A stretch of 39,975 bases of DNA from assembly GCA_025463055.1 (NCBI GenBank), contig JAOAPV010000052.1, positions 1-39,975 on the forward strand, written 5' to 3'. The DNA is from Candidatus Acidiferrum typicum (GTDB taxonomy: Bacteria; Acidobacteriota; Terriglobia; Acidiferrales; UBA7541). Of the stretch, positions 1,454-29,766 are shown piece after piece (the first letter of the stretch is position 1; the number at the start of each line of letters is the position of its first letter). The translations under genes were made by a program, and so were the position numbers. The notes under the pieces were generated by a model that did no database searches, was not told where the DNA came from, and worked only from the letters and a program-made list of their open reading frames with translations.

Positions 1454-2676
1454 ACCAGCATTCATTCATTCCATTTCACCGTCCTGAGATTGACGGCGCT
1501 GAAATCGATGCAGTAACAAGCACGCTTCGCTCTGGATGGCTAACGACGGGCGCCCGGACGGCACAATTTGAGAAGGAGTTCCGTGATTACATCGGAGCGA
1601 AAGACGCGCTGGCCTTAAATTCTGGTACCGCCGCTCTTCATTTGGCTCTGGCTGCGCTTGGGATTGGTCCTGGGGATGAGGTGATTACGACTCCGCTGAC
1701 CTTTTGCGCGACAGTGACCGCGATCATGCATGTCGGCGCAAAGCCGGTCCTGGCCGATATAGGTGCCGACGGAAATATCGATCCGGCTTGCATCGAACAA
1801 AAGATAACCGCACGCACGCGGGCAGTGATTCCCGTTCATTTTGCCGGTGCTCCTTGTCAAATGGACCAAATCTGGGCCCTAGCTAAGAAATACGACCTAT
1901 TCGTGGTTGAAGACGCAGCGCACGCGGCTGGAACATTGTATCGGGACAGACATGTCGGTGCGGAAAGCTTTGCCAGCGATGCGGTGGCCTTCAGTTTTTA
2001 CGCCACCAAGAACATGACGACCGGCGAAGGCGGCATGATTACTGCCAATAGTGAAGCTCTTCTCGCCCGAATGAGAATACTGGCATTACACGGAATCAAT
2101 CGAGACGCTTGGGGCCGATATCGCGAAAGCGGAAATTGGTACTACCAAGTGCTAGAAGCAGGGTTCAAGTACAACCTCAGCGACCTTCAATCAGCGATCG
2201 GAATACAACAGCTTCACAAGCTCGAGCGATTCATCGAGAAACGCACCCAGTATGCTGACCTCTATAACCAACTCTTGGGTGGCATAGAAGAATTGGAAGT
2301 GCCGCAGCCAGCCAGAAACGGCCGGCATTCCTGGCATCTCTATGTGCTCCGCCTCAATCTGGAGGAACTCAGCATTAACCGGGCTGCTTTTGTCTCAGAA
2401 TTGCGGGGCAGATGCATTGGTGCGAGTGTCCACTTCATCCCAATCCCTCTACACCCATTTTTTCAAGATCATGCCACTCGGCCTGAAAACGACTGTCCGC
2501 AATGTTTCGAACTCTACCCGCGACTGATCTCGCTTCCGCTATATCCATCAATGGCCGAGGAAGAAGTGTGTTACGTGGCCGACTCGGTTCGAGAAATCGT
2601 CGAGACATTCCGGAAGCCCAGACTCACCGCCGCGCCAATGGGCACTGGCCACGCCGGCCAGTGGAGTCCGCTATGA
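1450..2676 (+). CDS. DegT/DnrJ/EryC1/StrS sugar aminotransferase
   Basis: PLP-dependent aminotransferase that aminates a keto-sugar nucleotide, typically UDP-4-keto-6-deoxy-sugars. Family motifs are intact: SGTAALHLAL (residues 58-67), EDAAHA (154-159) and the PLP lysine K187 in FSFYATKNMTTGEGG. 408 residues is a normal length. The natural partner is the FlaA1/CapD-type 4,6-dehydratase at 5568, giving a 4-amino-4,6-dideoxyhexose of the bacillosamine, UDP-4-amino-FucNAc or perosamine kind. That product could serve the NulO pathway (legionaminic type) or be a separate residue in the polymer. The start ATG overlaps the upstream stop by ATGA and its own stop overlaps the OPX start the same way, so the three genes are translationally coupled. 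Confidence 0.92.
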   Translation: MNQHSFIPFHRPEIDGAEIDAVTSTLRSGWLTTGARTAQFEKEFRDYIGAKDALALNSGTAALHLALAALGIGPGDEVITTPLTFCATVTAIMHVGAKPVLADIGADGNIDPACIEQKITARTRAVIPVHFAGAPCQMDQIWALAKKYDLFVVEDAAHAAGTLYRDRHVGAESFASDAVAFSFYATKNMTTGEGGMITANSEALLARMRILALHGINRDAWGRYRESGNWYYQVLEAGFKYNLSDLQSAIGIQQLHKLERFIEKRTQYADLYNQLLGGIEELEVPQPARNGRHSWHLYVLRLNLEELSINRAAFVSELRGRCIGASVHFIPIPLHPFFQDHATRPENDCPQCFELYPRLISLPLYPSMAEEEVCYVADSVREIVETFRKPRLTAAPMGTGHAGQWSPL

Positions 2677-5567: not shown

Positions 5568-7487
5568 ATGATTTATAATTTCATACTGGATCATCGTTCA
5601 GGTTTCATGCAGCTGTGGAAGACAGGAGTAATCATCCTGTCGGTATGGGCAGCCTATATGCTGCGATTCGATTTCGCCATTCCCGGGACAGAGCTGCGTC
5701 ACCTACGGAGTGGAATAGTTATTGCGCTGATGGCGAAAATGTTGGTCTTTTACTTACTCGGGCTGGACCGCGGTTTGTGGCGATTCACGGGAGCGACCGA
5801 CGTTCCAAGGATTTTCGTTGCCAATCTTTCCGGATCGACGTTATTTACAATTGCCACTGCTGTCGTAGTGGGCCGCAATTTTCCGCGAGCCGTATATTTG
5901 ATCGATCTCTTACTCTGCTTTCTGCTGACTTGTGGCTGTCAACTTACAGTTCGGCTTTATCACGAAATGAGACTGCCGGGCATTCCTTCAGGGAAATCGG
6001 CCAAGGGATTACTGATATATGGCGCCGGGGAAGCGGGATTGAATCTCGTTCGAGAAATCCGATCAACTCCGAATTTCCAATATCGAATTGTAGGCTTCCT
6101 CGACGACGATGCTCGCAAACAACAAGCAACCTTGTTGGGTGTCCGAGTGTTCGGCCGCGGGCGTGATGCCGCTCGAATAGTTGAGCATCTTCGACACAAA
6201 TCAATCGGTGTCGATGAAATTGTAATCGCATTGCCGTCCGCTTCCGGACGGAAGCTCTCCGAGGCGCTGGCTAACTGCCGCTCCAGCGGAGTCCCTTGCA
6301 AGACGATCCCAAGCTCGGGAGAGTTGCTCTCCGGCAAAGTGCGCGTGAGTCAGATTCGCGAAATTACGGTCGAAAACCTGCTTGAGCGTGCACCGGTGAG
6401 TTTAGAACTCGAGCATATCCGTGAGTCGGTTTCTGAGCGATCCGTAATGGTTACCGGAGCGGGAGGATCGATTGGCTCTGAGCTGTGCCGGCAACTGCTT
6501 CAATTCCGTCCGAAATGTCTTGTCGCTCTCGACCAAGCAGAAAGCGATTTGTTCAAGATTGACCTGGAACTTAGAGAGCGACCACACGGCAGTAAAGTGT
6601 GTCCGGTCATTGCAGATATCCGGAATTACGACCGCCTGAAAGCAGTAGTTCAGCAGTATGGAGTCACATCTATTTATCACGCCGCCGCATACAAGCACGT
6701 ACCTATGATGGAAGACCATTTGCTTGAGGCCGTGATCACAAATGTGCTTGCCTTACATCACTTAGTGCGAACCGCGATGCAATGTGGAGTGAAGTCATTC
6801 ATCATGATTTCCTCCGATAAGGCAGTTAATCCCACAAACATTATGGGCTTAACGAAACGCGTCGCCGAGTTAGTGGTTTCTTCCATGCCAACCTCGAGCG
6901 AGCGGGGCAAGACGCGATTCGTGTCCGTCCGCTTTGGCAACGTGCTTGGGAGCAACGGAAGCGTCGTGCCTCTTTTCAAAGCGCAAATTGCAGCTGGCGG
7001 TCCGGTTACGGTCACTCATCCTGAGATGAGGCGTTATTTCATGACAATCCCCGAGGCAGTACAGCTCGTCCTGCAGGCTGGGACAATGGGCAAAGGTTCA
7101 GAACTTTTCGTGCTCGATATGGGCGAGCCCGTAAGAATCATTGACTTGGCCCGCAACATGATCCGGCTGTCCGGCTACGAGCCTGATGTCGAAATTCCCA
7201 TCCGGATTGTTGGAATGCGACCGGGCGAAAAACTCTACGAAGAACTGGCGACTACAAGCGATAAGGTGAGCCCTACGTGCCACGAAAAGATAATGGTTTT
7301 CCGAGGTTCTACATTCCCTCAACAATTTATGGAGCATTGGATCGCGGGACTTCAGGAATTAGTGGCTCAAGGGGACGACACTGGGGTCTTGTCCCACATG
7401 TGGGATCTCGTGACAGAGTACCAGCCAAGTGAAAAATGGCGAGCGGCCTTAGACACGAATCGCATGAAAGCCGTGGTCAACGCTTAG
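5568..7487 (+). CDS. Membrane-anchored nucleotide-sugar 4,6-dehydratase (WbpM/PglF/CapD type)
   Basis: About four N-terminal membrane helices (residues 15-130), a first Rossmann-like CoA-binding-type domain (YGAGEAG near 150) and a C-terminal extended SDR domain with VTGAGGSIGSELCRQ near 293. The catalytic region is SSDKAVNPTNIMGLTKR near 413: the usual YxxxK tyrosine is Met, as is normal in the WbpM/FlaA1 group, with the Asp-Lys pair kept. 639 residues is typical of full-length WbpM. Reaction in the family: UDP-GlcNAc to UDP-4-keto-6-deoxy sugar (with or without C5 inversion). It should feed the aminotransferase at 1450. The NeuB-type gene begins two bases after its stop, so it leads the NulO operon. 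Confidence 0.92.
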   Translation: MIYNFILDHRSGFMQLWKTGVIILSVWAAYMLRFDFAIPGTELRHLRSGIVIALMAKMLVFYLLGLDRGLWRFTGATDVPRIFVANLSGSTLFTIATAVVVGRNFPRAVYLIDLLLCFLLTCGCQLTVRLYHEMRLPGIPSGKSAKGLLIYGAGEAGLNLVREIRSTPNFQYRIVGFLDDDARKQQATLLGVRVFGRGRDAARIVEHLRHKSIGVDEIVIALPSASGRKLSEALANCRSSGVPCKTIPSSGELLSGKVRVSQIREITVENLLERAPVSLELEHIRESVSERSVMVTGAGGSIGSELCRQLLQFRPKCLVALDQAESDLFKIDLELRERPHGSKVCPVIADIRNYDRLKAVVQQYGVTSIYHAAAYKHVPMMEDHLLEAVITNVLALHHLVRTAMQCGVKSFIMISSDKAVNPTNIMGLTKRVAELVVSSMPTSSERGKTRFVSVRFGNVLGSNGSVVPLFKAQIAAGGPVTVTHPEMRRYFMTIPEAVQLVLQAGTMGKGSELFVLDMGEPVRIIDLARNMIRLSGYEPDVEIPIRIVGMRPGEKLYEELATTSDKVSPTCHEKIMVFRGSTFPQQFMEHWIAGLQELVAQGDDTGVLSHMWDLVTEYQPSEKWRAALDTNRMKAVVNA

Positions 7488-7489
7488 CT

Positions 7490-8539
7490 ATGCAGTTTGA
7501 TTCCAATCGCTGCTTTATCATCGGAGAAGTTGCGCAGGCTCACGACGGAAGCCTGGGCGCAGCTCATGCCTACATCGATGTCATCGCCCGGAGTGGAGCC
7601 GACGCAGTAAAGTTCCAAACTCATATCGCTGCGGCCGAAAGCACACCCGGCGAGCCCTGGCGCGTCTCGTTCAGTTTTCAAGACGAGTCGAGATATGCCT
7701 ACTGGAAACGAATGGAGTTTACGGAGGACCAATGGCTTGGCCTCAAACGCCATGCTGAGGAAAGAGGGCTTGAATTCCTTAGTTCGCCGTTCTCCATCGA
7801 AGCAGCGAAGATGCTCCGGCGGACCGGGGTCCGCGCGTGGAAAGTCGCCTCCGGTGAAGTGAGTAATCCTCAGCTCTTTAACTATTTGATCGATACACGT
7901 CTTCCGATCTTGCTTTCCACTGGAATGAGCACACTTCAGGAAGTGGATACAGCCGTTATGCAAGTTCAAGCGGCAGGAGTTGAACTTGCTGTTATGCAAT
8001 GCACGTCGATTTATCCGTGTCCGGCCGAGAAGGTCGGTTTAAACATGATTCCCTATTATCGGCAGCGCTATGGTTGTGCCGTTGGCCTTTCTGATCATTC
8101 GGCAACCATCTTCCCGTGCCTCGCCGGAGCGAGCATAGGAGTCGAAGTACTCGAGGTGCACGTTACCTTCAGTCATGACTGCTTCGGTCCTGACGTCGTA
8201 GCCTCACTAACCAGTGAGGAACTCGCAACGATGATTCAAGGTGTTCGCTTCATCGAGAAGATGACAAACCACATCGTCATCAAAGATGAATTGGCCAAGG
8301 AATTGGCTCCCGTTCGGGATCTCTTCACGAAGAGTATCGTGGCCGACGTCGACCTCCCAGTGGGAGCGTTGCTGACGCCTGAGTGCCTTACAGTCAAGAA
8401 GCCGGGCACTGGAATTCCCGCCGAAAGGCTGCCCTCGATAATTGGCCGGCGGGTGCGGCGTCCAATTACAGCCGGGGAGATGCTCAGTCCTTCCGACTTC
8501 AATGAAGACCGGGTGCCGCAGTGTCCACAAAACAGATGA
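7490..8539 (+). CDS. neuB: Nonulosonic acid synthase (NeuB/LegI/PseI family)
   Basis: Condenses phosphoenolpyruvate with a 6-carbon amino sugar to form a 9-carbon sialic-acid-like sugar. Start ATG 7490 (MQFDSNRCFIIGEVAQAHDG) is chosen because the family fold begins there; upstream Met codons lie within the dehydratase. Visible: the barrel N-terminus GEVAQAHDGSLGAAH, AVKFQTH, FLSSPFS, WKVASGE, LLSTGMST, GLSDHS, and a C-terminal SAF/antifreeze-like domain (about 290-345; VKKPGTGIP). GEVAQAHDG replaces the usual EIGxNHxG, marking a distinct subgroup, so I cannot say whether the product is neuraminic, legionaminic or another NulO. 349 residues is normal. It overlaps the MaoC-SDR gene by ATGA. Confidence 0.92.
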   Translation: MQFDSNRCFIIGEVAQAHDGSLGAAHAYIDVIARSGADAVKFQTHIAAAESTPGEPWRVSFSFQDESRYAYWKRMEFTEDQWLGLKRHAEERGLEFLSSPFSIEAAKMLRRTGVRAWKVASGEVSNPQLFNYLIDTRLPILLSTGMSTLQEVDTAVMQVQAAGVELAVMQCTSIYPCPAEKVGLNMIPYYRQRYGCAVGLSDHSATIFPCLAGASIGVEVLEVHVTFSHDCFGPDVVASLTSEELATMIQGVRFIEKMTNHIVIKDELAKELAPVRDLFTKSIVADVDLPVGALLTPECLTVKKPGTGIPAERLPSIIGRRVRRPITAGEMLSPSDFNEDRVPQCPQNR

Positions 8540-9801
8540 GCCAAAACCGTATTTCCGTGCTCCCTTGGAAGCCGAACTGCGAAATATCTGTCGAGAAATC
8601 GGTCTCCTCGTCACCACAGTTCGCCGACTTCGCCAAGATTCAGCCAGGCAGCGAAACGAGCTTTTCCAAAACAATTACTGCCGAAGACGTGGAGTCTTTT
8701 GCACGGCTCAGTGGTGATCGCAATCCGCTGCACATGAACGATGAATTCGCGGCGCGAACGCATTTCCAGCGACGTGTTGTGCATGGCATGCTCCTCGCGA
8801 GCTATGTTTCGGCGCTGGTTGGCATGCATTGTCCCGGCCCCGGTGCACTTTGGGCTCAGCAAAGCTTTCGTTGGCAGGCCCCCGCATTCATTGGCGACCG
8901 CATTGTCATCACTCTGAAGGTGAAACATAAATCGATGGGCTCAAGAACTTTAACGCTTGAGGTTAAGGCAGTGAACCAAGATGGAAAAACGCTGATGGAA
9001 GGTGAAGGTACCGTAAGCGCTCTCGAAGAAAAGAAGCGATCGGAAGATGTCCCGGTCAGCGAACGGGTCGCGTTCGTGAGCGGCGGGGCACGCGGAATAG
9101 GGGCGGCTATTTCGTTGGCGCTCGGCCGCGCGGGAGCCGCAGTGGTAGTTAACTATCGCAATAGCGCCGTCGCAGCGGAACAGTTGTGCGCTGAGATCCG
9201 GCGCGGCGGCGGTCGCGCTATTTCGGTACAAGCGGATGTGAGCGACTATTCATCCGTAGCTGAAACTGCGGTCCTCGCGTGCGCAGAGTTTAAGCATCCG
9301 ATTGACCTCCTTATCAACAATGCCGGTACTGTTCCGGAACCACGCCCCTTTATGGAGACGACATGGGAGGAAATCCAGTCAGCGCTCGACGTGCATCTTA
9401 GAGGCGCTGTTCATTGCTGCCAGGCGATGGTCCCCGGTATGATGGCGCAAAAATCCGGACGTATCATCAACATCGGCTCTGCATTTGTTCGAGCAACACC
9501 GCCGCCGAACTGGAGCTGCTTCCTGCTGGCCAAGTCTGCCGTACAAGCTCTGACACGCTGCCTTGCTTCTGAACTTGGGCCCTACGGTATTCGGGTGAAT
9601 TCAGTGTTACCAGGCTTGGTTGAAACGGACGCCATCAGTGGATTGTCCGAGCGGCTGCGAAAGGTCCAAGCGATGCAGACTCCGCTCCGCCGGCTCGCCA
9701 CTCCAAGCGAAATAGCAGCAGCTGTCACGGCCCTCTGCACAGGGCCGGGCGACTTCATTAACGGCGCCGAGATTCCAGTCTCTGGCGGCTTTCAGATGTA
9801 G
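8536..9801 (+). CDS. MaoC-like hydratase fused to short-chain dehydrogenase/reductase
   Basis: Two domains in one chain. Residues about 40-165 are a MaoC/R-hydratase hot-dog fold with its catalytic Asp61 and His66 in GDRNPLHMND. Residues about 176-420 are FabG-like: SGGARGIG cofactor loop, LINNAG, IINIGS with Ser315, and C-terminal FINGAEIPVSGG. The active-site Tyr of YxxxK is Phe329 (FLLAK, Lys333 kept), read directly from codon TTC at 9520. With the ACP next door, the fusion implies (R)-3-hydroxyacyl/enoyl-ACP chemistry, as in fatty-acid synthesis, but the reductase half may be inactive or altered. Start ATG 8536 gives an ATGA overlap; GTG 8521 is an alternative. Confidence 0.88.
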   Translation: MSQNRISVLPWKPNCEISVEKSVSSSPQFADFAKIQPGSETSFSKTITAEDVESFARLSGDRNPLHMNDEFAARTHFQRRVVHGMLLASYVSALVGMHCPGPGALWAQQSFRWQAPAFIGDRIVITLKVKHKSMGSRTLTLEVKAVNQDGKTLMEGEGTVSALEEKKRSEDVPVSERVAFVSGGARGIGAAISLALGRAGAAVVVNYRNSAVAAEQLCAEIRRGGGRAISVQADVSDYSSVAETAVLACAEFKHPIDLLINNAGTVPEPRPFMETTWEEIQSALDVHLRGAVHCCQAMVPGMMAQKSGRIINIGSAFVRATPPPNWSCFLLAKSAVQALTRCLASELGPYGIRVNSVLPGLVETDAISGLSERLRKVQAMQTPLRRLATPSEIAAAVTALCTGPGDFINGAEIPVSGGFQM

Positions 9802-9839
9802 AGACGCAGACTTTCCCTCTCCAGAATGGATTCAACTGT

Positions 9840-10124
9840 ATGTCACAAATGAGCCCCGTCGCGCAGACTCGCGCGCTTAGCAAAGTTCTAGGTCTCGCTG
9901 CAGAAGTTTTTCAAGTCCCGGAATCAAACCTCGCAGCTGCATCCTCGCCGGATACAATCGAGAGTTGGGACTCTCTTCATCACTTGACCTTTGTAGTGGC
10001 TCTTGAGCAGGAATTCAACATTCAATTTTCTCCAGAAGAAATTGAACAACTTCTTTCCATCGAGCTCGCGGCAGCGTTAGTCGACGAAAAAGCCAAAGGA
10101 CGGGAGATTTCTGATGGCTATTGA
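9840..10124 (+). CDS. Dedicated acyl carrier protein
   Basis: A 94-residue four-helix carrier protein with the phosphopantetheine site Ser45 in ESWDSLHHLTFV and the acidic helix II/III expected (VALEQEFNIQFSPEEIE). The DSL context followed by HHL is that of stand-alone carriers in O-antigen and capsule loci rather than housekeeping AcpP (which has DSLDTVE). It overlaps the following acyltransferase gene by 11 bases, and 38 bases separate it from the MaoC-SDR gene. Inference: it carries the acyl group that the MaoC-SDR fusion shapes and that the next enzyme transfers to a sugar amine. Confidence 0.93.
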   Translation: MSQMSPVAQTRALSKVLGLAAEVFQVPESNLAAASSPDTIESWDSLHHLTFVVALEQEFNIQFSPEEIEQLLSIELAAALVDEKAKGREISDGY

Positions 10125-11247
10125 GATCCGTTACGCAAGTCTGGACGAATATCCAGAGATCAGCCGTTTTCTAGACAATCACTGGGCTAAGAATCATGTA
10201 TACACCCGCGAACGCGACTTATTTGATTGGACATTCCACAGGCCGGGTCATTGGGGCGCCGACAAATACAGTATGTCCGTGGCAGTTGACGGAAACGAAC
10301 TGGTCGGTATTTTGGGAGGAATTCCATTTACGTTAAATCGGTTTGGGAAGAGCTCGAAAGCAGTTTGGATCGTTAACTATGTGATTCGTCCGGATTATCG
10401 TCGGGGCGCAACAGCACTGCAACTGTTGAGTTCATTTCGTCGCCAGGAGTTCTCCGCAGTCGTAGCTTTTGGAATTAATCCTGCGACGGTGGCCATTTAC
10501 CAGGTTCTGCGAGGCCAGGTTTTACCCGAAATTCCGCGTCACATCCTAGTTATGCCTCGCCAGGCGGAAAGGATGGCGCTCGCGCTGACGATCGCCTATC
10601 CGGATTGGGATGGCGAACGTATCCGGGATCTAAGTTCGGCATTTGAACTACCATCCCTGCCAGCGTATTCCAGTGCGTACGGCGTAACGTTGCCGTCCAA
10701 CTGGGACGAGAGAGATTGGCCTGAACACGCTTTGTCTACGTTAGGCGCTGCCCGCGATTATGACTACCTCGATTGGAGATATCGGAGCCATCCTTTGTTC
10801 CGCTACGAGTTTGTAACCGTAGAAGAGGGGAATAAAACCGGACTAGCAGTGTGGCGGGAAGAAACCATCCGCACCGAAACTCCGAACGGATTGCAAGAGG
10901 TAGACCGTATCGCGCGCCTTGTAGAATTCCTCCCATCCTCACCGGCGAATGCGCAACCTTTATTTGCTGCGTTTCTCGCAGAGGTAGCTCGCACAGGCGT
11001 GATGGCTGCTGATTTCTACGGATACCACGGTCAGACACGAGAGTGGCTGGAAGAAATGGGTTTTGGCGTCTCGGACAATCACCCAGATGGTGCGTGTTTT
11101 CCTTCCCGCTTCCAGCCGCTTGACGGCAAAGGTGGAGGCATTATGAGCGCCATTTTCTTGCAGGACAGCGCACTTCCATGCTCAAACGATTCTCAATGTC
11201 CGTGGTATTGGACCAAATCTGATTCAGACCAAGATCGGCCTAATTAA
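10114..11247 (+). CDS. GNAT-type acyltransferase, probably ACP-dependent
   Basis: The N-terminal half (residues 1-150) is a GNAT fold: IRYASLDEYPEISRFLDNHW, VDGNELVGILGGIP, then WIVNYVIRPDYRRGATALQLL, where RPDYRRGA occupies the acyl-donor pyrophosphate loop. The second half (about 200-345) looks like another, weaker GNAT-like or FemAB-like lobe. 377 residues is long for a simple acetyltransferase but normal for this glycan-locus group. Starting inside the ACP gene, it is the obvious candidate to move the ACP-borne acyl group to the amino sugar or the nonulosonate. Acetyl-CoA as donor cannot be excluded from sequence alone. Confidence 0.75.
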   Translation: MAIEIRYASLDEYPEISRFLDNHWAKNHVYTRERDLFDWTFHRPGHWGADKYSMSVAVDGNELVGILGGIPFTLNRFGKSSKAVWIVNYVIRPDYRRGATALQLLSSFRRQEFSAVVAFGINPATVAIYQVLRGQVLPEIPRHILVMPRQAERMALALTIAYPDWDGERIRDLSSAFELPSLPAYSSAYGVTLPSNWDERDWPEHALSTLGAARDYDYLDWRYRSHPLFRYEFVTVEEGNKTGLAVWREETIRTETPNGLQEVDRIARLVEFLPSSPANAQPLFAAFLAEVARTGVMAADFYGYHGQTREWLEEMGFGVSDNHPDGACFPSRFQPLDGKGGGIMSAIFLQDSALPCSNDSQCPWYWTKSDSDQDRPN

Positions 11248-11329
11248 CTATTTCACTGCCAACGCGGCCTAACGGTCCGGTGTCACCGACATAAGGCGTT
11301 GTAGTTCCCCGCCCAGTACTGGAGTTCCC

Positions 11330-12298
11330 GTGAATCATGGTCGACAGTTATACATCGCGACATATCACTACGTCAGAGATCTTCCCCACAGTCGTTTCCC
11401 CCAAATCAAGGGCATGCTTCTTGACGATTTTCGCAACCAGGTGAAAGTGCTGCCGGACTTGTTTGAGATGGCAACGCTGAACTCGGCTTATGACTTCCTG
11501 GCAGGAAGATATCAGCCCGGGCGGGATCTCTGCCTCATGACGTTTGACGATGGCCTCAAAGAGCACTACTCGGAAGTTACGCCAATACTCTCAGAGAAAG
11601 GGATACAAGGGATCTTTTTTCCAATTACCGGCTGTATGCAAGACCACGTTGTAGCACCGGTTCACATGAATCACTTTCTGTTGGCAGCGCTTGGGTGTGA
11701 GCAATACCGCGCTGCGTTTGTCGATGAACTAAGTACGTTGGGGCTTGCGGACCTTGCACATACAACGCTGGATGACGCTGCAGCTCAATGGACTTATCCT
11801 TTAGATGATTGCGAGACTGCGCGATTCAAGTATCTCTTCAATTTCATTTTGTCTCCTCTTTACCGCGACGTAGTTGTTCAAAAGCTGTTCGAGGAATGGA
11901 TCGGAGAAGAGGCTGCATTCGCCGCTGATCTTTACTTAAGCTGGGAAGAAGCCCGCGAGATGCAGCGAGCCGGAATGATGATGGGAGGGCACTCGCATGC
12001 CCACAGGCCCTTAGCACGCCTGGAGAACTCGGAGCTGGACCTCGATCTCGCTCGCTGCTGGGAACTCATGCAAGCGAACTTAGATGCGCAGGACTACTGG
12101 CCGTTCAGTTATCCCTACGGGAAAGCAGATTCATTCGATGGACGTGTAATCCAGAAATTACGTGAGCTGGGATTCTGCTGTTCTCTATGCACCGAAAAAG
12201 GCCTCAATGTGCCTGGCGTGGACTTCTTCGCGATTCATCGCGTTGATTGCAAGCAAATACTTCCTGAAAACCACTTACTACCACAAACATCCTTTTGA
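11330..12298 (+). CDS. Polysaccharide deacetylase (NodB-homology) family protein
   Basis: Metal-dependent de-N-acetylase fold with its motifs: TFDDG (Asp73, Asp74), HSHAH (His221-His225) and SYPYG (260-264). The GTG at 330 bases past 11 kb (11330) is the first start in frame; it reads MNHGRQLYIATYHYV, where the family's 'lxYHrV' strand begins, so little can be missing. No signal peptide, hence cytoplasmic: it would act on a nucleotide-sugar or free-sugar intermediate rather than finished polymer. Within a NulO cluster this fits removal of an N-acetyl group before the GNAT enzyme adds another acyl; that pairing is inference. The insert between TFDDG and HSHAH (about 145 residues, helical) is larger than in chitin deacetylases. 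Confidence 0.85.
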   Translation: MNHGRQLYIATYHYVRDLPHSRFPQIKGMLLDDFRNQVKVLPDLFEMATLNSAYDFLAGRYQPGRDLCLMTFDDGLKEHYSEVTPILSEKGIQGIFFPITGCMQDHVVAPVHMNHFLLAALGCEQYRAAFVDELSTLGLADLAHTTLDDAAAQWTYPLDDCETARFKYLFNFILSPLYRDVVVQKLFEEWIGEEAAFAADLYLSWEEAREMQRAGMMMGGHSHAHRPLARLENSELDLDLARCWELMQANLDAQDYWPFSYPYGKADSFDGRVIQKLRELGFCCSLCTEKGLNVPGVDFFAIHRVDCKQILPENHLLPQTSF

Positions 12299-12376
12299 AC
12301 GTGAAGTGTTCCCTGTTGAGTGCCATAAGTCGGTGCTAGCGGCGGCACATGAACACGTGCGTCGAGGTGGTCAGAG

Positions 12377-13654
12377 ATGATGGCATCCAAGTTGAACAAC
12401 GAAATGAAACGCAAAATCTGTGTAGTACTTGTAGATCGCGCTAATTACGGGCGTCTCAAACCAGTCCTAGCCGCGCTGTCAAAGAGGTCCGAAGTTGCTC
12501 TGCAGCTGATTGCGGCTGGCACGATGGTCTTAGAGCGGTTCGGCAATCCGGTGCAGAATGTAAAGAATGACGGATTCACCGTAGATGGCGAAATCTATAT
12601 TGAACTTGAGGGATCCACGCCAGCGACGATGGCAAAGTCGTTAGGCTTTGCGGTGGTGGAATTCGCCAGCGAATTCCAGCGTCTAAAACCCGATGTCGTC
12701 CTGCTGATCGGAGATCGATACGAAGCACTCGCCGCAGCCTTGGCTGCCGCGTATATGAATATCTGCATTGCGCACATTCAAGGTGGCGAAGTGTCCGGCT
12801 CCATCGATGAAAGCGCACGACATGCCATATCGAAGTTTGCTCATTATCATTTTCCGAGCACAGTACGAGCGGCCAATTATTTGGCGCGCATGGGAGAGAA
12901 TCCTCAGTCAATTCTAAGCATTGGTTGTCCAAGTAGCGACATTGCACGCGTGCTCGTACCCACAATCACTTCAGACATCATCAATAGCACGGGGAGCGGA
13001 TCAGAGATCGATCTCGATCATCCTTTTTTGCTGGTTGTTTTTCATCCCATCACGACTTCTTATGGCGGAGAAGGGGAGGAAGTGGGCCAGATTTTGGAGG
13101 CGCTCGAGCGACTGCAAACGCAAACCATTATGCTCTGGCCAAATATCGATGCCGGTGCTGACCACATTAGTAAGGCCATTCGAATGTTCCGGGATCGCGT
13201 CGGTCCCGCTTGGATGCGGACCCTTACTAATCTCTCTCCAGAGCATTACCTCGAGTTGCTCGCGCGAGTTTCCTGTGCCGTTGGCAATTCAAGCAGCTTC
13301 GTCCGCGACGCTGGCTTCTTCGGAACGCCCGTGGTTCTTGTCGGTGACAGGCAAGAGGGGCGCGAAACGGACGAGCACGCTATGCACGTGGCACCCGTGG
13401 CGTCTCACATATTCACAGCCATTCGTAAGCAGCTCAAGCACGGACCCTACGAATCCAGCGCGCTTTACGGCGATGGGCTTGTTGCCGAACGCATTGCAGG
13501 CGGACTCGTTCAACTGAGGCCCTACATTCAAAAACGACTCCACTATATCTACGAAGGGGGGACCGACCATGAGTATCCGCGTTCTTGGGGTGATCACGGC
13601 TCGGGGAGGGTCGAAGGGAATCTCTCGGAAGAACATCGTGCCGCTGCTCGGTAA
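12377..13654 (+). CDS. neuC: Hydrolysing UDP-N-acetylhexosamine 2-epimerase (NeuC type)
   Basis: Converts a UDP-N-acetylated glucosamine-type sugar to the free 2-epimer (ManNAc type) plus UDP, the precursor for NeuB. GT-B-like fold with motifs VLLIGDRYEALAAALAA, HIQGGEVSGSIDESARHAISK, a central VVFHP and the C-terminal VGNSSSFVRDAGFFGTPVV. It is closer in motif wording to NeuC/NeuC-like (legionaminic GlcNAc 2-epimerase) than to WecB. A start at ATG 12377 (or 12380) follows a purine-rich stretch. The last 28 residues after HYIYEGG are low-quality and overlap neuA by 86 bases, unlike every other junction in the locus; one extra G in the run of six at 13556-13561 would end the gene at TGA 13570-13572 in present numbering, giving ATGA coupling. 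Confidence 0.92.
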   Translation: MMASKLNNEMKRKICVVLVDRANYGRLKPVLAALSKRSEVALQLIAAGTMVLERFGNPVQNVKNDGFTVDGEIYIELEGSTPATMAKSLGFAVVEFASEFQRLKPDVVLLIGDRYEALAAALAAAYMNICIAHIQGGEVSGSIDESARHAISKFAHYHFPSTVRAANYLARMGENPQSILSIGCPSSDIARVLVPTITSDIINSTGSGSEIDLDHPFLLVVFHPITTSYGGEGEEVGQILEALERLQTQTIMLWPNIDAGADHISKAIRMFRDRVGPAWMRTLTNLSPEHYLELLARVSCAVGNSSSFVRDAGFFGTPVVLVGDRQEGRETDEHAMHVAPVASHIFTAIRKQLKHGPYESSALYGDGLVAERIAGGLVQLRPYIQKRLHYIYEGGTDHEYPRSWGDHGSGRVEGNLSEEHRAAAR

Positions 13655-14288
13655 ACCACTCCTCGTTTATACAGTGCAAGCCGCACTGGCAAGTAAGAAA
13701 CTCACTCGAACTGTCTTGTCGACCGACGATACAGCTATAGCAGAAATTGGTATGCGTTCGGGAGTCGACGTGCCATTCATGCGCCCTGCTGAACTGGCCG
13801 GCGACGACGTCGCAACGATTCCAGTCCTGCAGCATGCGGTTGGAGAATTGGAGAAGGCAGGTGAACGGTACGACGCGGTTCTAACCCTGCAGCCCACGAA
13901 CCCGTTGCGTCGGGCTGAGGACATTGACGGAGCGATAGAGCTGTTGGAGTCAACCGGAGCGGATTCCGTAATCTCGTTTGTCGAGGTGGGTGAGCATCAC
14001 CCAGCTCGAATGAAATGGATTGCTCCAGACGGCCGTGTATCAGACCCTGCTTTTGCTGAGGCGTTCGAAGGCCAACCACGCCAGCAACTTCAGAAGCTTT
14101 ATCTTCGCGAGGGATCCATTTACTTGACGCGTCGCGCGGTGCTGATGGAAAACAATTCCATAAAGGGAAATGACTGCCGCGCATGGATCATTCCGCCGGA
14201 GCGAGCACTGAATATCGACACACCTTTCGACCTGCTAATGACGGAACAGGTCTTGAAATCTAACGGAAAGCCAGCAGCGCACGCCTAG
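13569..14288 (+). CDS. neuA: CMP-nonulosonate cytidylyltransferase (NeuA type)
   Basis: Activates the NulO with CTP to the CMP-sugar donor. Diagnostic N-terminus VITARGGSKGISRKNI (ARGGSKG at 11-17 is the CTP-binding loop), then LTLQPTNPLRRAEDI and the C-terminal LNIDTPFDLLMTEQV. 239 residues matches single-domain NeuA/LegF/PseF; no extra phosphatase or esterase domain. The stop TAG shares its G with the GTG of the next gene. Together with the synthase at 7490 and the epimerase at 12377 it completes the NulO pathway except for a NeuB-phosphate phosphatase, which is not needed if the substrate is unphosphorylated. Confidence 0.93.
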   Translation: MSIRVLGVITARGGSKGISRKNIVPLLGKPLLVYTVQAALASKKLTRTVLSTDDTAIAEIGMRSGVDVPFMRPAELAGDDVATIPVLQHAVGELEKAGERYDAVLTLQPTNPLRRAEDIDGAIELLESTGADSVISFVEVGEHHPARMKWIAPDGRVSDPAFAEAFEGQPRQQLQKLYLREGSIYLTRRAVLMENNSIKGNDCRAWIIPPERALNIDTPFDLLMTEQVLKSNGKPAAHA

Positions 14289-15364
14289 TGCTACCTAATA
14301 TTCTAGTTTCGGAAGCTACTGGTTTTTCGGACAGTGCGGCGGAGCATCTTCGGATCTGTTCTCGGCTATTTCTGAGAGATTTGGACCGAACCTCTCTAAT
14401 CATAGCAGTGCGCGACGTCGACGTTCTTTGGGTTCGGCTAAGGCACAAAATCGATCGTGAAGTAATCGAAGCCGGTCCCAACCTGCGGGCGATTGCGACG
14501 CCTACGACCGGGCTGAACCACATCGATTTAGCACACGCCGAAAAGCTTGGTATTCACGTCATTTCGCTTCAAGGCGCAACCGACTTCTTGCAAAACGTAT
14601 ATGCGACTGCGGAACATGCTGTCGCACTGATTCTCAGCCTGATGAGACATTTGCCCGCCGCGCACGAACATGCCATCAGCGACCATTGGAACCGCGATTT
14701 GTTCATTGGAAACGAGTTGCACGGAAAGGCGGCAGGAGTAATCGGGTATGGTCGTCTCGGCAAAATGGTCGCTAAGTATCTGCAAAGTTTTGGCATGCGA
14801 ATTTCCGTTACGGACGTCAAGAATCCTGATCAACTTGAGCACCCCGACATAGCAAACGTCTCTCTCGATCACCTGCTCCACACCAGTGACGTCGTAACGT
14901 TGCATGTGCCCCTCTCGGACCAAACAAAGGGATTTTTCGGGAAACGCGAGTTTGCCTGCATGAAGCCGGGTTCTTGGTTTATTAATACGGCGCGAGGCGA
15001 ACTCGTGGACGAACGCGCTCTTCTTGATGCGCTCCGAACAAGACACCTTAGCGGTGCGGCTTTGGATGTTTTGTGTGATGAGCAATCGTCTAATTTCGGC
15101 GATAACTCACTGGTTCGATATGCGCAGCAGCATACGAACTTGCTGATCACACCTCATATAGGAGGATGCACGCGAGAGTCGAGAGAGAAAACCGAGCGTT
15201 TTCTCGCGACAAGAGTCGTCGAGTTTCTTTCTAGAGGTCTCAAGGATTCAGTTGCAACAGGCAGTCGCTTAGAAGAGGTAACTGGCACTCCAAATTATGA
15301 TCCCAGCTTTCCTACAACGGAAGGTGTCTCTGTCGCCGCAGGAGTTTCATGGAAAAAGCAATGA
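14288..15364 (+). CDS. D-isomer-specific 2-hydroxyacid dehydrogenase family protein
   Basis: NAD(P)-dependent oxidoreductase of the D-2-hydroxyacid family (phosphoglycerate/lactate dehydrogenase group). Visible: substrate-domain start, ATPTTGLNHIDL, the NAD loop GVIGYGRLGK near 156-164, VTLHVPLSDQT, INTARGELVDE with the catalytic Arg, AALDVLCDE and the catalytic His in ITPHIGGCT. 358 residues with a roughly 30-residue C-terminal tail. GTG 14288 shares one base with the neuA stop, so it is a cotranslated part of the NulO operon. The substrate is unknown; oxidation or reduction of a 2-hydroxy acid or of a nonulosonate-derived keto acid is conceivable. Also found near sugar loci in other bacteria, role unproven as far as I know. 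Confidence 0.85.
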   Translation: MLPNILVSEATGFSDSAAEHLRICSRLFLRDLDRTSLIIAVRDVDVLWVRLRHKIDREVIEAGPNLRAIATPTTGLNHIDLAHAEKLGIHVISLQGATDFLQNVYATAEHAVALILSLMRHLPAAHEHAISDHWNRDLFIGNELHGKAAGVIGYGRLGKMVAKYLQSFGMRISVTDVKNPDQLEHPDIANVSLDHLLHTSDVVTLHVPLSDQTKGFFGKREFACMKPGSWFINTARGELVDERALLDALRTRHLSGAALDVLCDEQSSNFGDNSLVRYAQQHTNLLITPHIGGCTRESREKTERFLATRVVEFLSRGLKDSVATGSRLEEVTGTPNYDPSFPTTEGVSVAAGVSWKKQ

Positions 15365-16200
15365 CCAGCGATTTCTCGGCAGTCAGTCACCTTCGCATTC
15401 AGCCAAGCCAAGGCTGGGTTGCGTTACAACTCAGAGATTTGTGGTTATACCGCGAGCTGCTCTACTTTTTTATCTGGCGAGATATCAAAGTCCGGTACAA
15501 GCAGACGGCCTTAGGGGCAGCATGGGCCGTAATCCAGCCGCTATTCACAATGTTGGTTTTCAGTCTTTTCTTTGGGCGTCTTGCAAAAATACCATCCGAT
15601 GGCATTCCATATCCCTTGTTTGTTTATTGCGCTCTCGTGCCTTGGACGTTCTTTGCTCAAGGATTGGCGCAATCGGCTGATAGTCTTGTCGGACAGGGAA
15701 ATCTAATTAGAAAAGTCTATTTCCCACGTTTAGCCATACCTCTGAGCAGCGTGAGTGCGGGACTGGTGGACTTCTCAATTAGCTTCACAGTTTTGTTGGC
15801 ACTCATGGCCCGTTACGGTGTTCGCCCCACCAGTCATCTCGTTTGGCTTCCATGCCTATTGTTACTAGCATTTGTGACTTCCCTCGGCGTTGGACTCTGG
15901 CTGTCCGCGCTAAACGTACGATTTCGAGATGTCAAATACGCCCTCCCTTTCATTATCCAGTTTTGGATGTTCGCGACGCCGATAGCGTACCCCAGCAGCT
16001 TGCTAGGTAAACCTGGAAGACTTGTTCTTGCGCTCAACCCGATGGTGGGTGTGGTCGAAGGCTTTCGCTGGGCTCTATTGGGTGCGAAAACTGCTCCAGG
16101 ACCACTAATGCTTGTGTCAGGACTTGCAGCCCTGGGTGTCTTAACCGGGGGCGCGTTTTATTTCCGCAGGATGGAGAAAAGCTTCGCGGACGTCGTCTGA
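15349..16200 (+). CDS. wzm: ABC-2 type polysaccharide transporter permease (Wzm/KpsM/TagG type)
   Basis: Six-helix inner-membrane permease: LWLYRELLYFFIWRDIKVRYKQTALGAAWAV is family-typical in its Rxx-IKVRYKQT core, followed by PLFTMLVFSLFFGRLA, VPWTFFAQGL, NLIRKVYFPRLA, and RFRDVKYALPFIIQFWMFATP near the C-terminal third. 283 residues is standard. It would export lipid-linked glycan with the ATPase at 17991. ATG 15349 has a close AGGAG (four-base spacing); ATG 15361 would give an ATGA overlap with the dehydrogenase stop, so either start is possible. An AsnB gene separates it from its ATPase, which is unusual. Confidence 0.92.
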   Translation: MEKAMTSDFSAVSHLRIQPSQGWVALQLRDLWLYRELLYFFIWRDIKVRYKQTALGAAWAVIQPLFTMLVFSLFFGRLAKIPSDGIPYPLFVYCALVPWTFFAQGLAQSADSLVGQGNLIRKVYFPRLAIPLSSVSAGLVDFSISFTVLLALMARYGVRPTSHLVWLPCLLLLAFVTSLGVGLWLSALNVRFRDVKYALPFIIQFWMFATPIAYPSSLLGKPGRLVLALNPMVGVVEGFRWALLGAKTAPGPLMLVSGLAALGVLTGGAFYFRRMEKSFADVV

Positions 16201-16242: not shown

Positions 16243-17994
16243 ATGTGTGGGATGGCTGGATTATTCGGCACTGAGTGGAATCGGTTTCAGCTCGAGCGCA
16301 TGGCAACCGTTCAGCACCACCGAGGCCCTGACGACCGCGGTTTTTTTGTCGATGAAAGCGGGATGGCCGCACTGGCGCATAATCGGCTAAGTATCCTCGA
16401 CTTATCGCCCGCGGGTCATCAACCGATGGCGAACGCTGCGGGAAATCTTCGGATTGTATTTAACGGAGAAATCTACAACTTCCTCGAGCTTCGGCGGGAG
16501 TTAAGCGATTACCAATTTCGGACCACAACCGATACCGAAGTTATTCTGGCAGCGTATGAGCGATGGGGCGAATCCTGCCTCGATCATTTCGTAGGGATGT
16601 TCAGTCTCCTGATCTGGGACATTCACGAACAGCAGCTATTCGGAGCACGTGACCGCTTCGGAGTGAAGCCCCTGTACTATGCGCTAGGTCCAAACGGCGG
16701 CCTTGCGATAGCGAGTGAGATCAGGGCCCTTCACGCGGCTGGCGTTCCCAAGAACATCAACGAGAATACTTGGGCTTCGTATCTCGCCTACGGCTTGCAC
16801 GACCACTCAACGTCGACATTCTGGGAGGGCGTTTCAGCTCTCGCGCCTGGACACTCCTTTACCTGGGAAGATGGACGCCTTCAGATCAACCAATGGTATG
16901 ACCTGCCAACACAGGTTGGATGGGAGTTCGATTCAAGACCGTCGCATGAGGTTTGCGAAGAATATTTAGCCTTGCTCCTCGAAAGTATCCAGTTAAGGTT
17001 TCGTTCTGACGTCGAAGTTGGAATTAACATCAGCGGGGGCTTGGACTCCTCTACGCTGCTTGCTTTGATCCATCGATCGAATAGTTGCGCGAGCAAGGTT
17101 AAGGCGTTCACTTACACAACGGGCGACGCACGATACGACGAGCTCCCATGGGTGCAAAGAAATTTGAAACAGATGGAACACCCTTCTTTCGTCTATCAGC
17201 TCCGCCCCGAAGAGGTCCCCGATCTAGCAACGGATGTACAGGAACATCAGGATGAGCCTTTCGGTGGTTTGCCCACTCTGGCCTACGCCCGGCTGTTTGA
17301 ACTAGCCAGACGCTCGGGAGTCGTTGTCCTACTCGATGGCCAAGGAATGGACGAGCAGTGGGCGGGCTACGACTATTACACGCAGTTAACTGAAGAGACT
17401 TCCTTTGCTCCCCTGCAGGGAACGAATCATAGAGCCACAATGCCTGGATGTCTCACTTCGGAGTTTCTCAGGAGGGCTGAGCCTTTGCATCCTCCTCAGC
17501 CCTTTCCAGATCGACTGCGCAACCGTCAGTATCTCGATACCCGTTTTACAAAAATTCCCAGAGCTTTGCGGTTCAACGACCGCGTTTCAATGAGAGCTTC
17601 GACAGAGTTACGCGAACCGTTCATGGACCATCGCCTGTTTGAACTGGCATTCCGCCAACCCAAGGAAAGAAAGATCATGGATCACACTGGCAAGTGGTTG
17701 CTGCGTGAGATGACACGGAACTTGCTTCCGTGCGAAGTGTCGGAAGCTCCCAAACGCCCTGTCCAAACTCCTCAAAGAGAATGGCTATCCGGCCCGCTCC
17801 GCAGTTGGACGCAGAGTTGCATCGAAACGGTCCTGTCGGAGTACGGCGGCACTTGGTTCGACAAAGGCCGCGTGATGGATGCTTGGAGTACGTACGTTGG
17901 GGGCGGGAGTTCGAATAGCTACTACGTGTGGCAATGGATCAGTCTGTGCTTAACGCTTCAGACTTCTCTCCAGGGAGTGGTGGCACTTCAATGA
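16243..17994 (+). CDS. Glutamine-dependent asparagine synthetase-type amidotransferase (AsnB family)
   Basis: N-terminal Ntn glutaminase domain with the nucleophile Cys2 (MCGMAGLFG), HHRGPDDRGFF, HNRLSILDLSPAGHQP and FNGEIYNFLELR; C-terminal ATP-pyrophosphatase domain with ISGGLDSS near 263, LLDGQGMDEQWAGYDYY and FNDRVSMRASTELREPFMDHR. 583 residues, full length. The reaction is amide transfer from glutamine to an adenylated carboxylate. Embedded between the ABC permease and ATPase genes, it more likely amidates a carboxyl group of the glycan (uronic acid or nonulosonate) than makes asparagine; that is inference from position. The DGQGMDEQ wording differs from housekeeping AsnB (DGxGGDEL). Its stop overlaps the ATPase start by ATGA. 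Confidence 0.9.
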   Translation: MCGMAGLFGTEWNRFQLERMATVQHHRGPDDRGFFVDESGMAALAHNRLSILDLSPAGHQPMANAAGNLRIVFNGEIYNFLELRRELSDYQFRTTTDTEVILAAYERWGESCLDHFVGMFSLLIWDIHEQQLFGARDRFGVKPLYYALGPNGGLAIASEIRALHAAGVPKNINENTWASYLAYGLHDHSTSTFWEGVSALAPGHSFTWEDGRLQINQWYDLPTQVGWEFDSRPSHEVCEEYLALLLESIQLRFRSDVEVGINISGGLDSSTLLALIHRSNSCASKVKAFTYTTGDARYDELPWVQRNLKQMEHPSFVYQLRPEEVPDLATDVQEHQDEPFGGLPTLAYARLFELARRSGVVVLLDGQGMDEQWAGYDYYTQLTEETSFAPLQGTNHRATMPGCLTSEFLRRAEPLHPPQPFPDRLRNRQYLDTRFTKIPRALRFNDRVSMRASTELREPFMDHRLFELAFRQPKERKIMDHTGKWLLREMTRNLLPCEVSEAPKRPVQTPQREWLSGPLRSWTQSCIETVLSEYGGTWFDKGRVMDAWSTYVGGGSSNSYYVWQWISLCLTLQTSLQGVVALQ

Positions 17995-19256
17995 GTCGCA
18001 TTGCGATAAAGGCCGAGGGAATTTCCAAGCGCTACACAATTGGCGCTAGACAGCAGCCCTATCGAACGTTGAGAGATTCCATTGCGGGCGCTGTCGCCAG
18101 GCCATTTAGCGTTTTCCGGCCTCGCAGAGCGCATGTCGCCCAAGAAGATCGAAACGTGTGGGCTCTCCGGGATGTCTCCTTTGAGATTCACCCGGGCGAA
18201 GTAGTGGGTGTCATTGGTCGAAACGGCGCCGGCAAAAGCACTCTCCTCAAAATTCTTTCCCGCATCACGGAACCAACCTCTGGCGCGGCAGACCTGTATG
18301 GACGGATTGGTTCGCTTCTGGAAGTAGGTACCGGCTTTCACGGAGAGCTCACCGGCCGCGAGAATATTTATCTGAACGGCGCAATCTTGGGTATGAGAGC
18401 CAAGGATATCAATCGGCAGTTTGATCGCATCGTCGCTTTCGCGGAAGTAGAAAAATTCATTGACACTCCGGTGAAGCACTACTCCACGGGCATGTACATG
18501 AGGCTGGCTTTTGCCGTAGCAGCTCACCTCGAGCCCGAAATCCTTCTTGTCGACGAGGTACTAGCTGTCGGCGACGTTTCTTTCCAACGTAAATGCCTTG
18601 GTCGGATCGGCGAGGTAGCCGCGGATGGGCGGACCGTGCTTTTTGTGAGCCACAATATGGGTGCTATTCGATCTTTATGTACCAAGGGAATCGTACTCGA
18701 CAGAGGGCGCGTAACGCACTTCGGCCAGATTGCCAAGAGCATTGAGGCCTATTTCGAATCGACAAATAATTCCTCGACCCATGCCGCGGAGAATGACTCT
18801 CTACCCCATGGATTCGGCCCGATATTGATAACAGGGTCCGATGGAACCATTGAGCAGGGCGACAGCTTCGAGGTAAACACGACAATGCGAATTCCGCCGG
18901 CCGCCGCGGGCTTCACGCTTCTGTGTGTGTTGGAAGACCCTTCTCAACGCAACATTTTTCATCTCCGGATCGACAGCTCGGATCTCAAATTGAGTTTGCC
19001 TTGGCGAGACAACTACGCCATCAGGCTGCGGCTGCCTCCCCTCTGGCTGGAGCCCGGACTGTATTCTCTTTGGTTTAAAGCACTCTATTGCGGTGAGACT
19101 GTTCAATCCCGAATTCTATCGGATATCTACTATCTGGATGTTTCGGGCAGAAGTAGTGGTTGGAACGCGGTTCTCTCGCCAGCCCCTCGATGGTCCCTGG
19201 AAGCCGTTGATGCGGCGCAGGTATGTGAGATAGAGGCAGCGACTTCGAACACATGA
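17991..19256 (+). CDS. wzt: ABC transporter ATPase with C-terminal glycan-recognition extension (Wzt type)
   Basis: Nucleotide-binding domain: GRNGAGKSTLL (Walker A, near 76), STGMYMRLAFAVA (signature region of the Wzt/TagH group), ILLVDEVLAVGD (Walker B) and VSHNMGAI (switch His). After about residue 265 a further roughly 155 residues form a beta-rich domain resembling Wzt-C, which in O8/O9a systems binds the capped non-reducing end of the finished glycan before export. Start ATG 17991 overlaps the AsnB stop; the frame is open upstream but MSRIAIKAEGISKRY is where the family begins. The presence of this domain predicts a terminal modification, for which the methyltransferases just downstream are candidates. 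Confidence 0.92.
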   Translation: MSRIAIKAEGISKRYTIGARQQPYRTLRDSIAGAVARPFSVFRPRRAHVAQEDRNVWALRDVSFEIHPGEVVGVIGRNGAGKSTLLKILSRITEPTSGAADLYGRIGSLLEVGTGFHGELTGRENIYLNGAILGMRAKDINRQFDRIVAFAEVEKFIDTPVKHYSTGMYMRLAFAVAAHLEPEILLVDEVLAVGDVSFQRKCLGRIGEVAADGRTVLFVSHNMGAIRSLCTKGIVLDRGRVTHFGQIAKSIEAYFESTNNSSTHAAENDSLPHGFGPILITGSDGTIEQGDSFEVNTTMRIPPAAAGFTLLCVLEDPSQRNIFHLRIDSSDLKLSLPWRDNYAIRLRLPPLWLEPGLYSLWFKALYCGETVQSRILSDIYYLDVSGRSSGWNAVLSPAPRWSLEAVDAAQVCEIEAATSNT

Positions 19257-29675: not shown

Positions 29676-29766
29676 GAATTGGCTTTTCTGAGACATAAGT
29701 AAGCCACGGTGCCCAACTCAATTCCAGTCTGTGTCGAAACCTATTTAATACGTGCGAGCAACTCTC

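Follow-up and report, generated by a model that had tools for sequence, protein, structure and literature searches.

The DNA analyzed here, a stretch of 39,975 nucleotides from Candidatus Acidiferrum typicum that we call the window, comes from contig C9 of a 5.33-Mb genome assembled in 146 contigs. It carries a run of nonulosonate biosynthesis genes in which four further genes, encoding a fusion of a MaoC domain with a short-chain dehydrogenase/reductase (SDR), an acyl carrier protein (ACP), a GNAT-like protein, and a NodB-type deacetylase, stand between NeuB and NeuC. The probable role of these extra genes is to equip a sugar with an unusual short fatty-acid group, and with a little less than even confidence we read them as an accessory N-acylation cassette within a nonulosonate operon. 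All of the module genes named in an initial annotation of this DNA are present at the place and on the strand given there: from 7490 to 14288, in a single direction, NeuB, the MaoC-SDR fusion, the ACP, the GNAT-like protein, the deacetylase, NeuC, and NeuA follow one another (Table 1). That annotation did not name the PglF-type dehydratase, DegT, the D-2-hydroxyacid dehydrogenase, or the change from tyrosine to phenylalanine in the SDR.

Family scans with Pfam covered 20 window proteins and those with NCBIfam likewise 20 (part of them at E ≤ 1e-10), reaching to position 31374. Both halves of the fusion are recognized (MaoC, 5.4e-20; adh_short_C2, 2.9e-54), and the MaoC motif is intact (GDRNPLH, for GDxNPxH). 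The ACP matches PP-binding at 1.7e-4 (22.2 bits; cut-off 20.8) and does have the intact phosphopantetheine serine ascribed to it, at residue 45 in a WDSL motif (DSL at residues 44-46). The deacetylase scores 66.1 bits with Polysacc_deac_1 (cut-off 23.1) and contains the motifs TFDDG, HSHAH, and FSYPYG (Asp-His-His). It had been described as cytoplasmic; the NodB-type assignment stands, and the location rests on hydropathy and the N-terminal sequence, the highest 19-residue Kyte-Doolittle mean being 0.95 and no signal peptide being recognizable.

The pairing of MaoC-SDR with an ACP is a real, recurring unit of glycan loci, for which nonulosonate loci are one home among others. Four other fusion loci (L008/L037, L055, L057, and L086) all have an ACP and an FkbH match over its cut-off within about 6 kb, FkbH being directly adjacent in the first three and at a distance of about 4 to 5.5 kb in L086. 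By tblastn, the fusions of L008/L037, L055, and L057 are 33-40% identical to that of the window, and the window ACP is 41% identical to the L055 ACP over residues 15-87. Nonulosonate synthase genes lie within about 10 kb of the fusion in two of the four: L008 has two NeuB/NeuC/NeuA sets, and L055/L110 has PseB, PseC, PseG, and PseI over their cut-offs, PseI lying some 7 kb away from the fusion. The stretches of L057 (plus L111) and L086 contain no NeuB or PseI match; in L057, NeuC is matched weakly (4e-5). At L090-L092, ACPs in the vicinity of SDR genes were assumed to be housekeeping.

The fusion was searched for in 16 chosen genomes (E ≤ 1e-25) and, at stricter limits, in larger sets. In the phylum of L008, 12 of 193 genomes matched at 1e-45, three of them aligned across both halves; in the phylum of L002 the figure was 11 of 247 at the same limit, with L086 showing MaoC and SDR within a single frame of 597 residues. 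The plasmid collection (tblastn, E ≤ 1e-30) gave three matches, to the SDR part only. The fusion count leaves aside L089, which has adjacent MaoC and SDR frames, CoA-transferase-like genes recognized by eye, and no ACP found by hidden Markov model; it also leaves aside L082 and G452, the latter with a weak, wide match (E 1.3e-26, 2 stops).

Several observations weigh against the acylation cassette. The catalytic tyrosine of the SDR is a phenylalanine in the window (WSCFLLAK; TTC codon) and is kept in the SDR halves of the fusions L037, L055, L057, and L086; ketoreductase activity is therefore doubtful, which leaves the MaoC half as the possibly working part. A search of 297 genomes of the window's own phylum at E ≤ 1e-60, a limit stricter than that used elsewhere, found the fusion in no other genome, the sole match being its own. 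Two of the three fusions from the phylum of L008 (E 3.2e-57 and 2.9e-55) would miss that limit, which is thus too strict to establish absence of the fusion from the phylum. The GNAT-like protein reaches 24.8 bits with Acetyltransf_9, just under the cut-off of 25, its sequence does not contain the consensus coenzyme A (CoA) loop R/Q-x-x-G-x-G/A, and one of its relatives (L093) is without any Pfam match. As for the loading of the ACP, FkbH (TIGR01686) is not in the window, the single genome match over the cut-off being on contig C14, and neither an acyl ligase nor a 3-ketoacyl-ACP synthase III (KAS III) was recognized in the Pfam and NCBIfam scans of window proteins, no genome-wide KAS search having been made.

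Stand-alone SDRs with histidine for the catalytic tyrosine (AHSTAK-type) occur at L056, L058-L065, L084, and L088 and are 38-46% identical to the window SDR domain; by eye, no polysaccharide genes stood out at L056, L058, L062, and L064. Membership of the window SDR in this family was rejected, the tree placing it outside the clade (support 0.995). The same tree puts it near the fusions L037, L055, and L057 at an unsupported node (0.204), and the SDR half of L086 elsewhere.

The distribution of NeuB relatives is a further point on the opposing side. Seventeen loci were compared, 10 from a first search and 7 from later ones (L094 and L100, from the same genomes as L002 and L006, were counted once). 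NeuC is present in 14 of them and NeuA in 12, an ACP with MaoC nearby in one (L008, which also has FkbH), the deacetylase in one (L108), and the GNAT-like protein in none. Absence of the module means little at L001, L004, L006, L007, and L109, since these 5 loci are either short or truncated close to NeuB. The initial annotation had held that the NeuB wording GEVAQAHDG marks an unusual subgroup, and that the module would be unrelated if close NeuB relatives lacked linked ACP, MaoC-SDR, and GNAT genes. The wording does mark a subgroup: QAHDGSLG occurs in all 10 relatives of the first search, and among the later 7 there is QAHDG in L104, QSHDG in L107 and L108, and SVHDG in L105, L106, and L109, the HDG pattern not being met within the first 60 residues of the L103 frame as read. 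The linkage did not bear out, and lack of these genes is largely what the counts show; that the subgroup as such carries the acylation module is rejected. A D-2-hydroxyacid dehydrogenase gene lies near NeuB in 7 of the 17 (L003, L008, L009, L010, L103, L104, and L107).

These counts bear on the main rival explanation, in which the acylation is directed at some other component of the polysaccharide, an amino sugar or a lipid part, and the position of the cassette is due to co-transfer. We consider this somewhat unlikely. It would agree with the lack of ACP or MaoC at 16 of the 17 NeuB loci (5 of the 17 being short or cut), with the fusion loci L057 and L086, whose covered stretches lack a NeuB or PseI match, with a GNAT relative (L043) that stands beside DegT and not NeuB, and with the other amino-sugar and initiating-transferase genes of the window. 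Against it, the cassette overlaps NeuB and separates this gene from NeuC, and nonulosonate genes are present at two of the other four fusion loci.

If the cassette does serve nonulosonate synthesis, the dedicated ACP would carry a short acyl chain, which the MaoC domain would set as a 3-hydroxyacyl or enoyl thioester. The GNAT-like protein would move the acyl group to a free amine, either the 4-amino group made by DegT (at the later C7 position) or an amine that the deacetylase has uncovered; NeuB would build the acid, NeuA would activate it, and Wzm/Wzt would export the polymer. Within this scheme we infer the use of the ACP by the GNAT-like protein, the sugar position, the identity of the acyl group, and the route by which the ACP is loaded. 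A narrower version, in which the GNAT-like protein is an ACP-dependent N-acyltransferase with a degenerate CoA loop that places 3-hydroxybutyryl or crotonyl on a nonulosonate precursor, we hold doubtful; there, given the missing catalytic tyrosine of the SDR half, the form of the acyl group would be set by the MaoC domain alone.

GNAT-fold enzymes that use acyl-ACP exist, and by analogy a noncanonical CoA loop would be consistent with ACP, and not CoA, as the donor; sequence divergence would explain it equally well. The gene begins, as first described, inside the ACP gene (position 10114, an overlap of 11 nt), and the assignment to the GNAT type is borderline. The protein is rare, matched in 2 of 396 own-phylum genomes at E ≤ 1e-8, its own included, and in 1 of 193 genomes of another phylum at E ≤ 1e-5; its own genome has no second good match (next E 0.44), the plasmid collection none (tblastn, E ≤ 0.01), and the PDB search was empty at E ≤ 1. 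A single-sequence structure prediction had a mean predicted local distance difference test score (pLDDT) of 38.3. The relative at L043, with a Pfam GNAT domain at 39.9 bits, lies near an epimerase-like gene as well as DegT, and the gene at L093 overlaps that of an AMP-binding ligase, which comes after an SDR.

The initial annotation had proposed that the sugar is deacetylated and that a hydroxyacyl or enoyl group, prepared on the dedicated ACP, is then transferred to its amine, an interpretation that is partly supported overall. The recurrence of MaoC-SDR with ACP, near nonulosonate genes in two of four loci, speaks for preparation on the ACP, but the reductase is doubtful and no loading enzyme was recognized. 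Deacetylation followed by transfer draws support from the settings of the GNAT relatives L043 and L093 and from a related deacetylase, with the lack of the GNAT-like protein at all 17 NeuB relatives standing against it. At L108 (13291-15023), the gene for that deacetylase shares 4 nt with a formyltransferase gene and lies next to NeuA, which is on the opposite strand; the best NCBIfam match of the formyltransferase is an amino-sugar formyltransferase (53.6 against a cut-off of 238). The two are possibly a deacetylate-then-formylate pair, and their overlap fits the order of deacetylation and then reacylation. Another related deacetylase, at L039, is about 11.6 kb from its NeuB.

An unlikely alternative is that the cassette is decaying or has been reassigned, so that the GNAT-like protein is an ordinary acetyl-CoA N-acetyltransferase in the role of LegH or PglD, and MaoC-SDR and ACP are remnants of an FkbH-ACP-MaoC-SDR unit minus FkbH and the SDR tyrosine. 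The change from tyrosine to phenylalanine would fit, as would the lack of FkbH in the window when all four other fusion loci have it, and Pfam found no hexapeptide-type N-acetyltransferase (LegH/PglD) among the proteins of 5568-15364; yet no frame is interrupted, and both the ACP serine and the MaoC motif are preserved.

It is very improbable that the acyl group is derived from glycerate or lactate and that the one genome FkbH over the cut-off, on contig C14, feeds the cassette in trans, the way a cis FkbH may in the related loci. In its favor, the usual grouping is FkbH-ACP-MaoC-SDR, and Campylobacter jejuni has an fkbH-domain gene in its flagellar glycosylation locus and dimethylglyceric-acid nonulosonates on its flagella, with no tie between the two stated in the part of the source available (PMC7099621). 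Against it, the C14 FkbH is accompanied by an adjacent ACP, a GNAT, and a hexapeptide-like gene of its own, and supply in trans is speculation. The genes on C14 (L067, 8677-12455), for a GNAT, FkbH, an ACP, and, by eye, a hexapeptide-like transferase, stand in a row and form a second ACP unit.

Regarding the sugar itself, the neighboring genes perhaps form a complete CMP-nonulosonate pathway, which may be of the legionaminic type, with Wzm/Wzt export. NeuB has clear matches to Pfam NeuB (E 5.3e-62, 209.9 bits; cut-off 22.1) and SAF (41 bits; cut-off 21) and falls short of the models for both N-acetylneuraminate synthase (TIGR03569, 284.2 bits; cut-off 399.65) and pseudaminic acid synthase (TIGR03586, 187.4 bits; cut-off 340.25), the nearest solved structure being SiaC/N-acetylneuraminate synthase. 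NeuC exceeds its cut-off with TIGR03568 (353 bits against 235.9), and NeuA falls short of the PseF model (144.5 bits; cut-off 205.7). The DegT protein scores 379.2 bits with PseC (cut-off 423.5) and 234.5 with the LegC family TIGR04181 (cut-off 420), with an ArnB-type protein as its best PDB match; we infer its membership in the pathway. The dehydratase is closest to the WlaL structures (5bjw, 285.2 bits, against 124.8 for 2gn4), which we take to be C. jejuni PglF, and from this closeness it is possibly a retaining UDP-GlcNAc 4,6-dehydratase.

The legionaminic acid pathway runs through LegB, LegC, LegH, LegG, LegI, and LegF. Candidates for its dehydratase, aminotransferase, 2-epimerase, synthase, and cytidylyltransferase are all in the window; in contrast, DegT is short of the LegC model, and no LegH-type acetyltransferase was recognized in the operon, the GNAT-like protein being a candidate replacement. 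A legionaminic-type acid could be made if the GNAT-like protein fills this place. The structure matches of NeuC, closer to human-type GNE (4zht, 232.7 bits) than to diacetylbacillosamine 2-epimerase (5xvs, 161 bits), argue for UDP-GlcNAc as substrate and against the legionaminic route, so a neuraminic-type route from UDP-GlcNAc is open as well.

The genes had been described as one tightly coupled run, which holds for most junctions. The stop of the PglF-type dehydratase gene is 2 nt ahead of the NeuB start, NeuB overlaps the fusion by 4 nt counted from the ATG at 8536 or 19 nt from the GTG at 8521, a gap of 38 nt separates the fusion from the ACP, NeuC and NeuA overlap by 86 nt (13569-13654), and the D-2-hydroxyacid dehydrogenase gene overlaps NeuA by 1 nt; it does not hold for the deacetylase, which is flanked by gaps of 82 nt (5') and 78 nt (3'). 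In a simple duplex calculation, the ribosome-binding match is good for the GNAT start (-8.0 kcal/mol) and weak for NeuB (-1.1), the fusion ATG (+0.8), and the ACP (-3.1 kcal/mol), and the weak matches would fit translational coupling. The last 30 or so residues of NeuC, in the region of the NeuA overlap, lie beyond the part alignable with relatives.

Table 1. Genes of the nonulosonate region and its flanks (positions in the window)
Feature	Position	Strand	Basis
DegT/DnrJ-family sugar 4-aminotransferase (PseC/ArnB-like)	1450..2676	+	NCBIfam, PDB match
PglF-type UDP-GlcNAc 4,6-dehydratase (putative)	5568..7487	+	Pfam Polysacc_synt_2 4.6e-118
NeuB-type nonulosonate synthase, QAHDG subgroup	7490..8539	+	Pfam NeuB + SAF
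MaoC-SDR fusion	8536..9801 (ATG); alternative GTG start 8521	+	Pfam MaoC, adh_short_C2
Acyl carrier protein, 94 aa	9840..10124	+	Pfam PP-binding
GNAT-like protein, 377 aa, candidate acyl transferase	10114..11247	+	Acetyltransf_9, under cut-off
NodB-type deacetylase	11330..12298	+	Polysacc_deac_1 3.7e-18
Hydrolysing UDP-sugar 2-epimerase (NeuC/LegG type)	12377..13654	+	TIGR03568
CMP-nonulosonate cytidylyltransferase (NeuA/PseF-like)	13569..14288	+	Pfam CTP_transf_3
D-2-hydroxyacid dehydrogenase (PGDH-like)	14288..15364	+	Pfam
Wzm-type ABC export permease	15349..16200	+	Pfam ABC2_membrane
Wzt-type ABC export ATPase	17928..19256	+	Pfam ABC_tran 2.9e-21

Downstream of NeuA come the D-2-hydroxyacid dehydrogenase, Wzm, an asparagine-synthase-type protein, and Wzt, followed by methyltransferases, glycosyltransferases, and a Wzy_C protein. 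Wzm/Wzt pairs of similar kind occur in some of the NeuB-relative loci. Near the end of the polysaccharide cluster, the protein encoded at 29752-31374 contains a 191-residue segment twice, with 180 of 191 residues identical; the Pfam scan found no family over its cut-off in it.

Non-acetyl N-acyl groups on nonulosonates are known chemically. The capsular polysaccharide of Sinorhizobium fredii contains a 7-(3-hydroxybutyramido) nonulosonate, so that 3-hydroxybutyryl nonulosonates do exist, though this one has the L-glycero-L-manno (pseudaminic) configuration (PMC4881576). If the acylation cassette is what it appears to be, a compact operon with an ACP, MaoC, a candidate transferase, and a deacetylase would make the acyl-supply step testable in vitro, and the MaoC-SDR fusion with its ACP would offer a genomic marker by which acyl-modified glycans could be traced among uncultured bacteria.

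There are published precedents for the acylation of glycan sugars through an ACP, described in Pseudomonas syringae (PMC3927599) and proposed in Aeromonas (PMC7874193), as far as the parts of these sources available here go. The viosamine island of P. syringae (vioA, vioB, vioM, vioT, vioS, vioR, and acp), in which vioR is a reductase and vioS a KAS III, makes 3-hydroxybutyryl viosamine (PMC3927599). It resembles the window in combining, amid sugar genes, a dedicated ACP with a reductase (in the window an SDR of doubtful activity) and an amino-sugar acyltransferase (in the window a candidate); it differs in that its product is a hexose rather than a nonulosonate, and the seven genes named in that part of the source include neither a MaoC fusion nor a deacetylase, both of which the window has (PMC3927599). 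Measured against it, the window has an ACP with the attachment serine and an SDR, the latter with phenylalanine for tyrosine, and no recognized KAS III.

The Aeromonas polar-flagella islands of Group II place an ACP, a 3-oxoacyl-ACP reductase, and an AMP-dependent synthetase between pseudaminic genes, and a GNAT and an acyl dehydratase are named for those of Group III (PMC7874193). In the ACP and reductase of the one and the GNAT and dehydratase of the other they are like the window, whereas Group II also has the synthetase, LuxE, and LuxC, and the target is flagellin, with a liposugar part proposed by the authors, rather than an exported polysaccharide (PMC7874193). Enterobacterial flagellin islands have an ACP and FabG, with FabZ in one strain, in the portion of the source covered (PMC4875605). 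The FkbH-ACP-MaoC-SDR units described above (L008/L037, L055, and L057, with L086 similar) share the MaoC-SDR fusion with an ACP; the window differs from them in lacking FkbH, in the order fusion-ACP-GNAT, and in the loss of the SDR tyrosine. Among the open-literature matches listed, judged by titles and the beginnings of abstracts, none described a nonulosonate operon that combines MaoC-SDR, ACP, GNAT, and deacetylase. Because comparable additions have been published in other bacteria, we regard the system as a variant and not a new kind; the window is set apart by having a MaoC-SDR fusion and a deacetylase and by the position of these genes between NeuB and NeuC.

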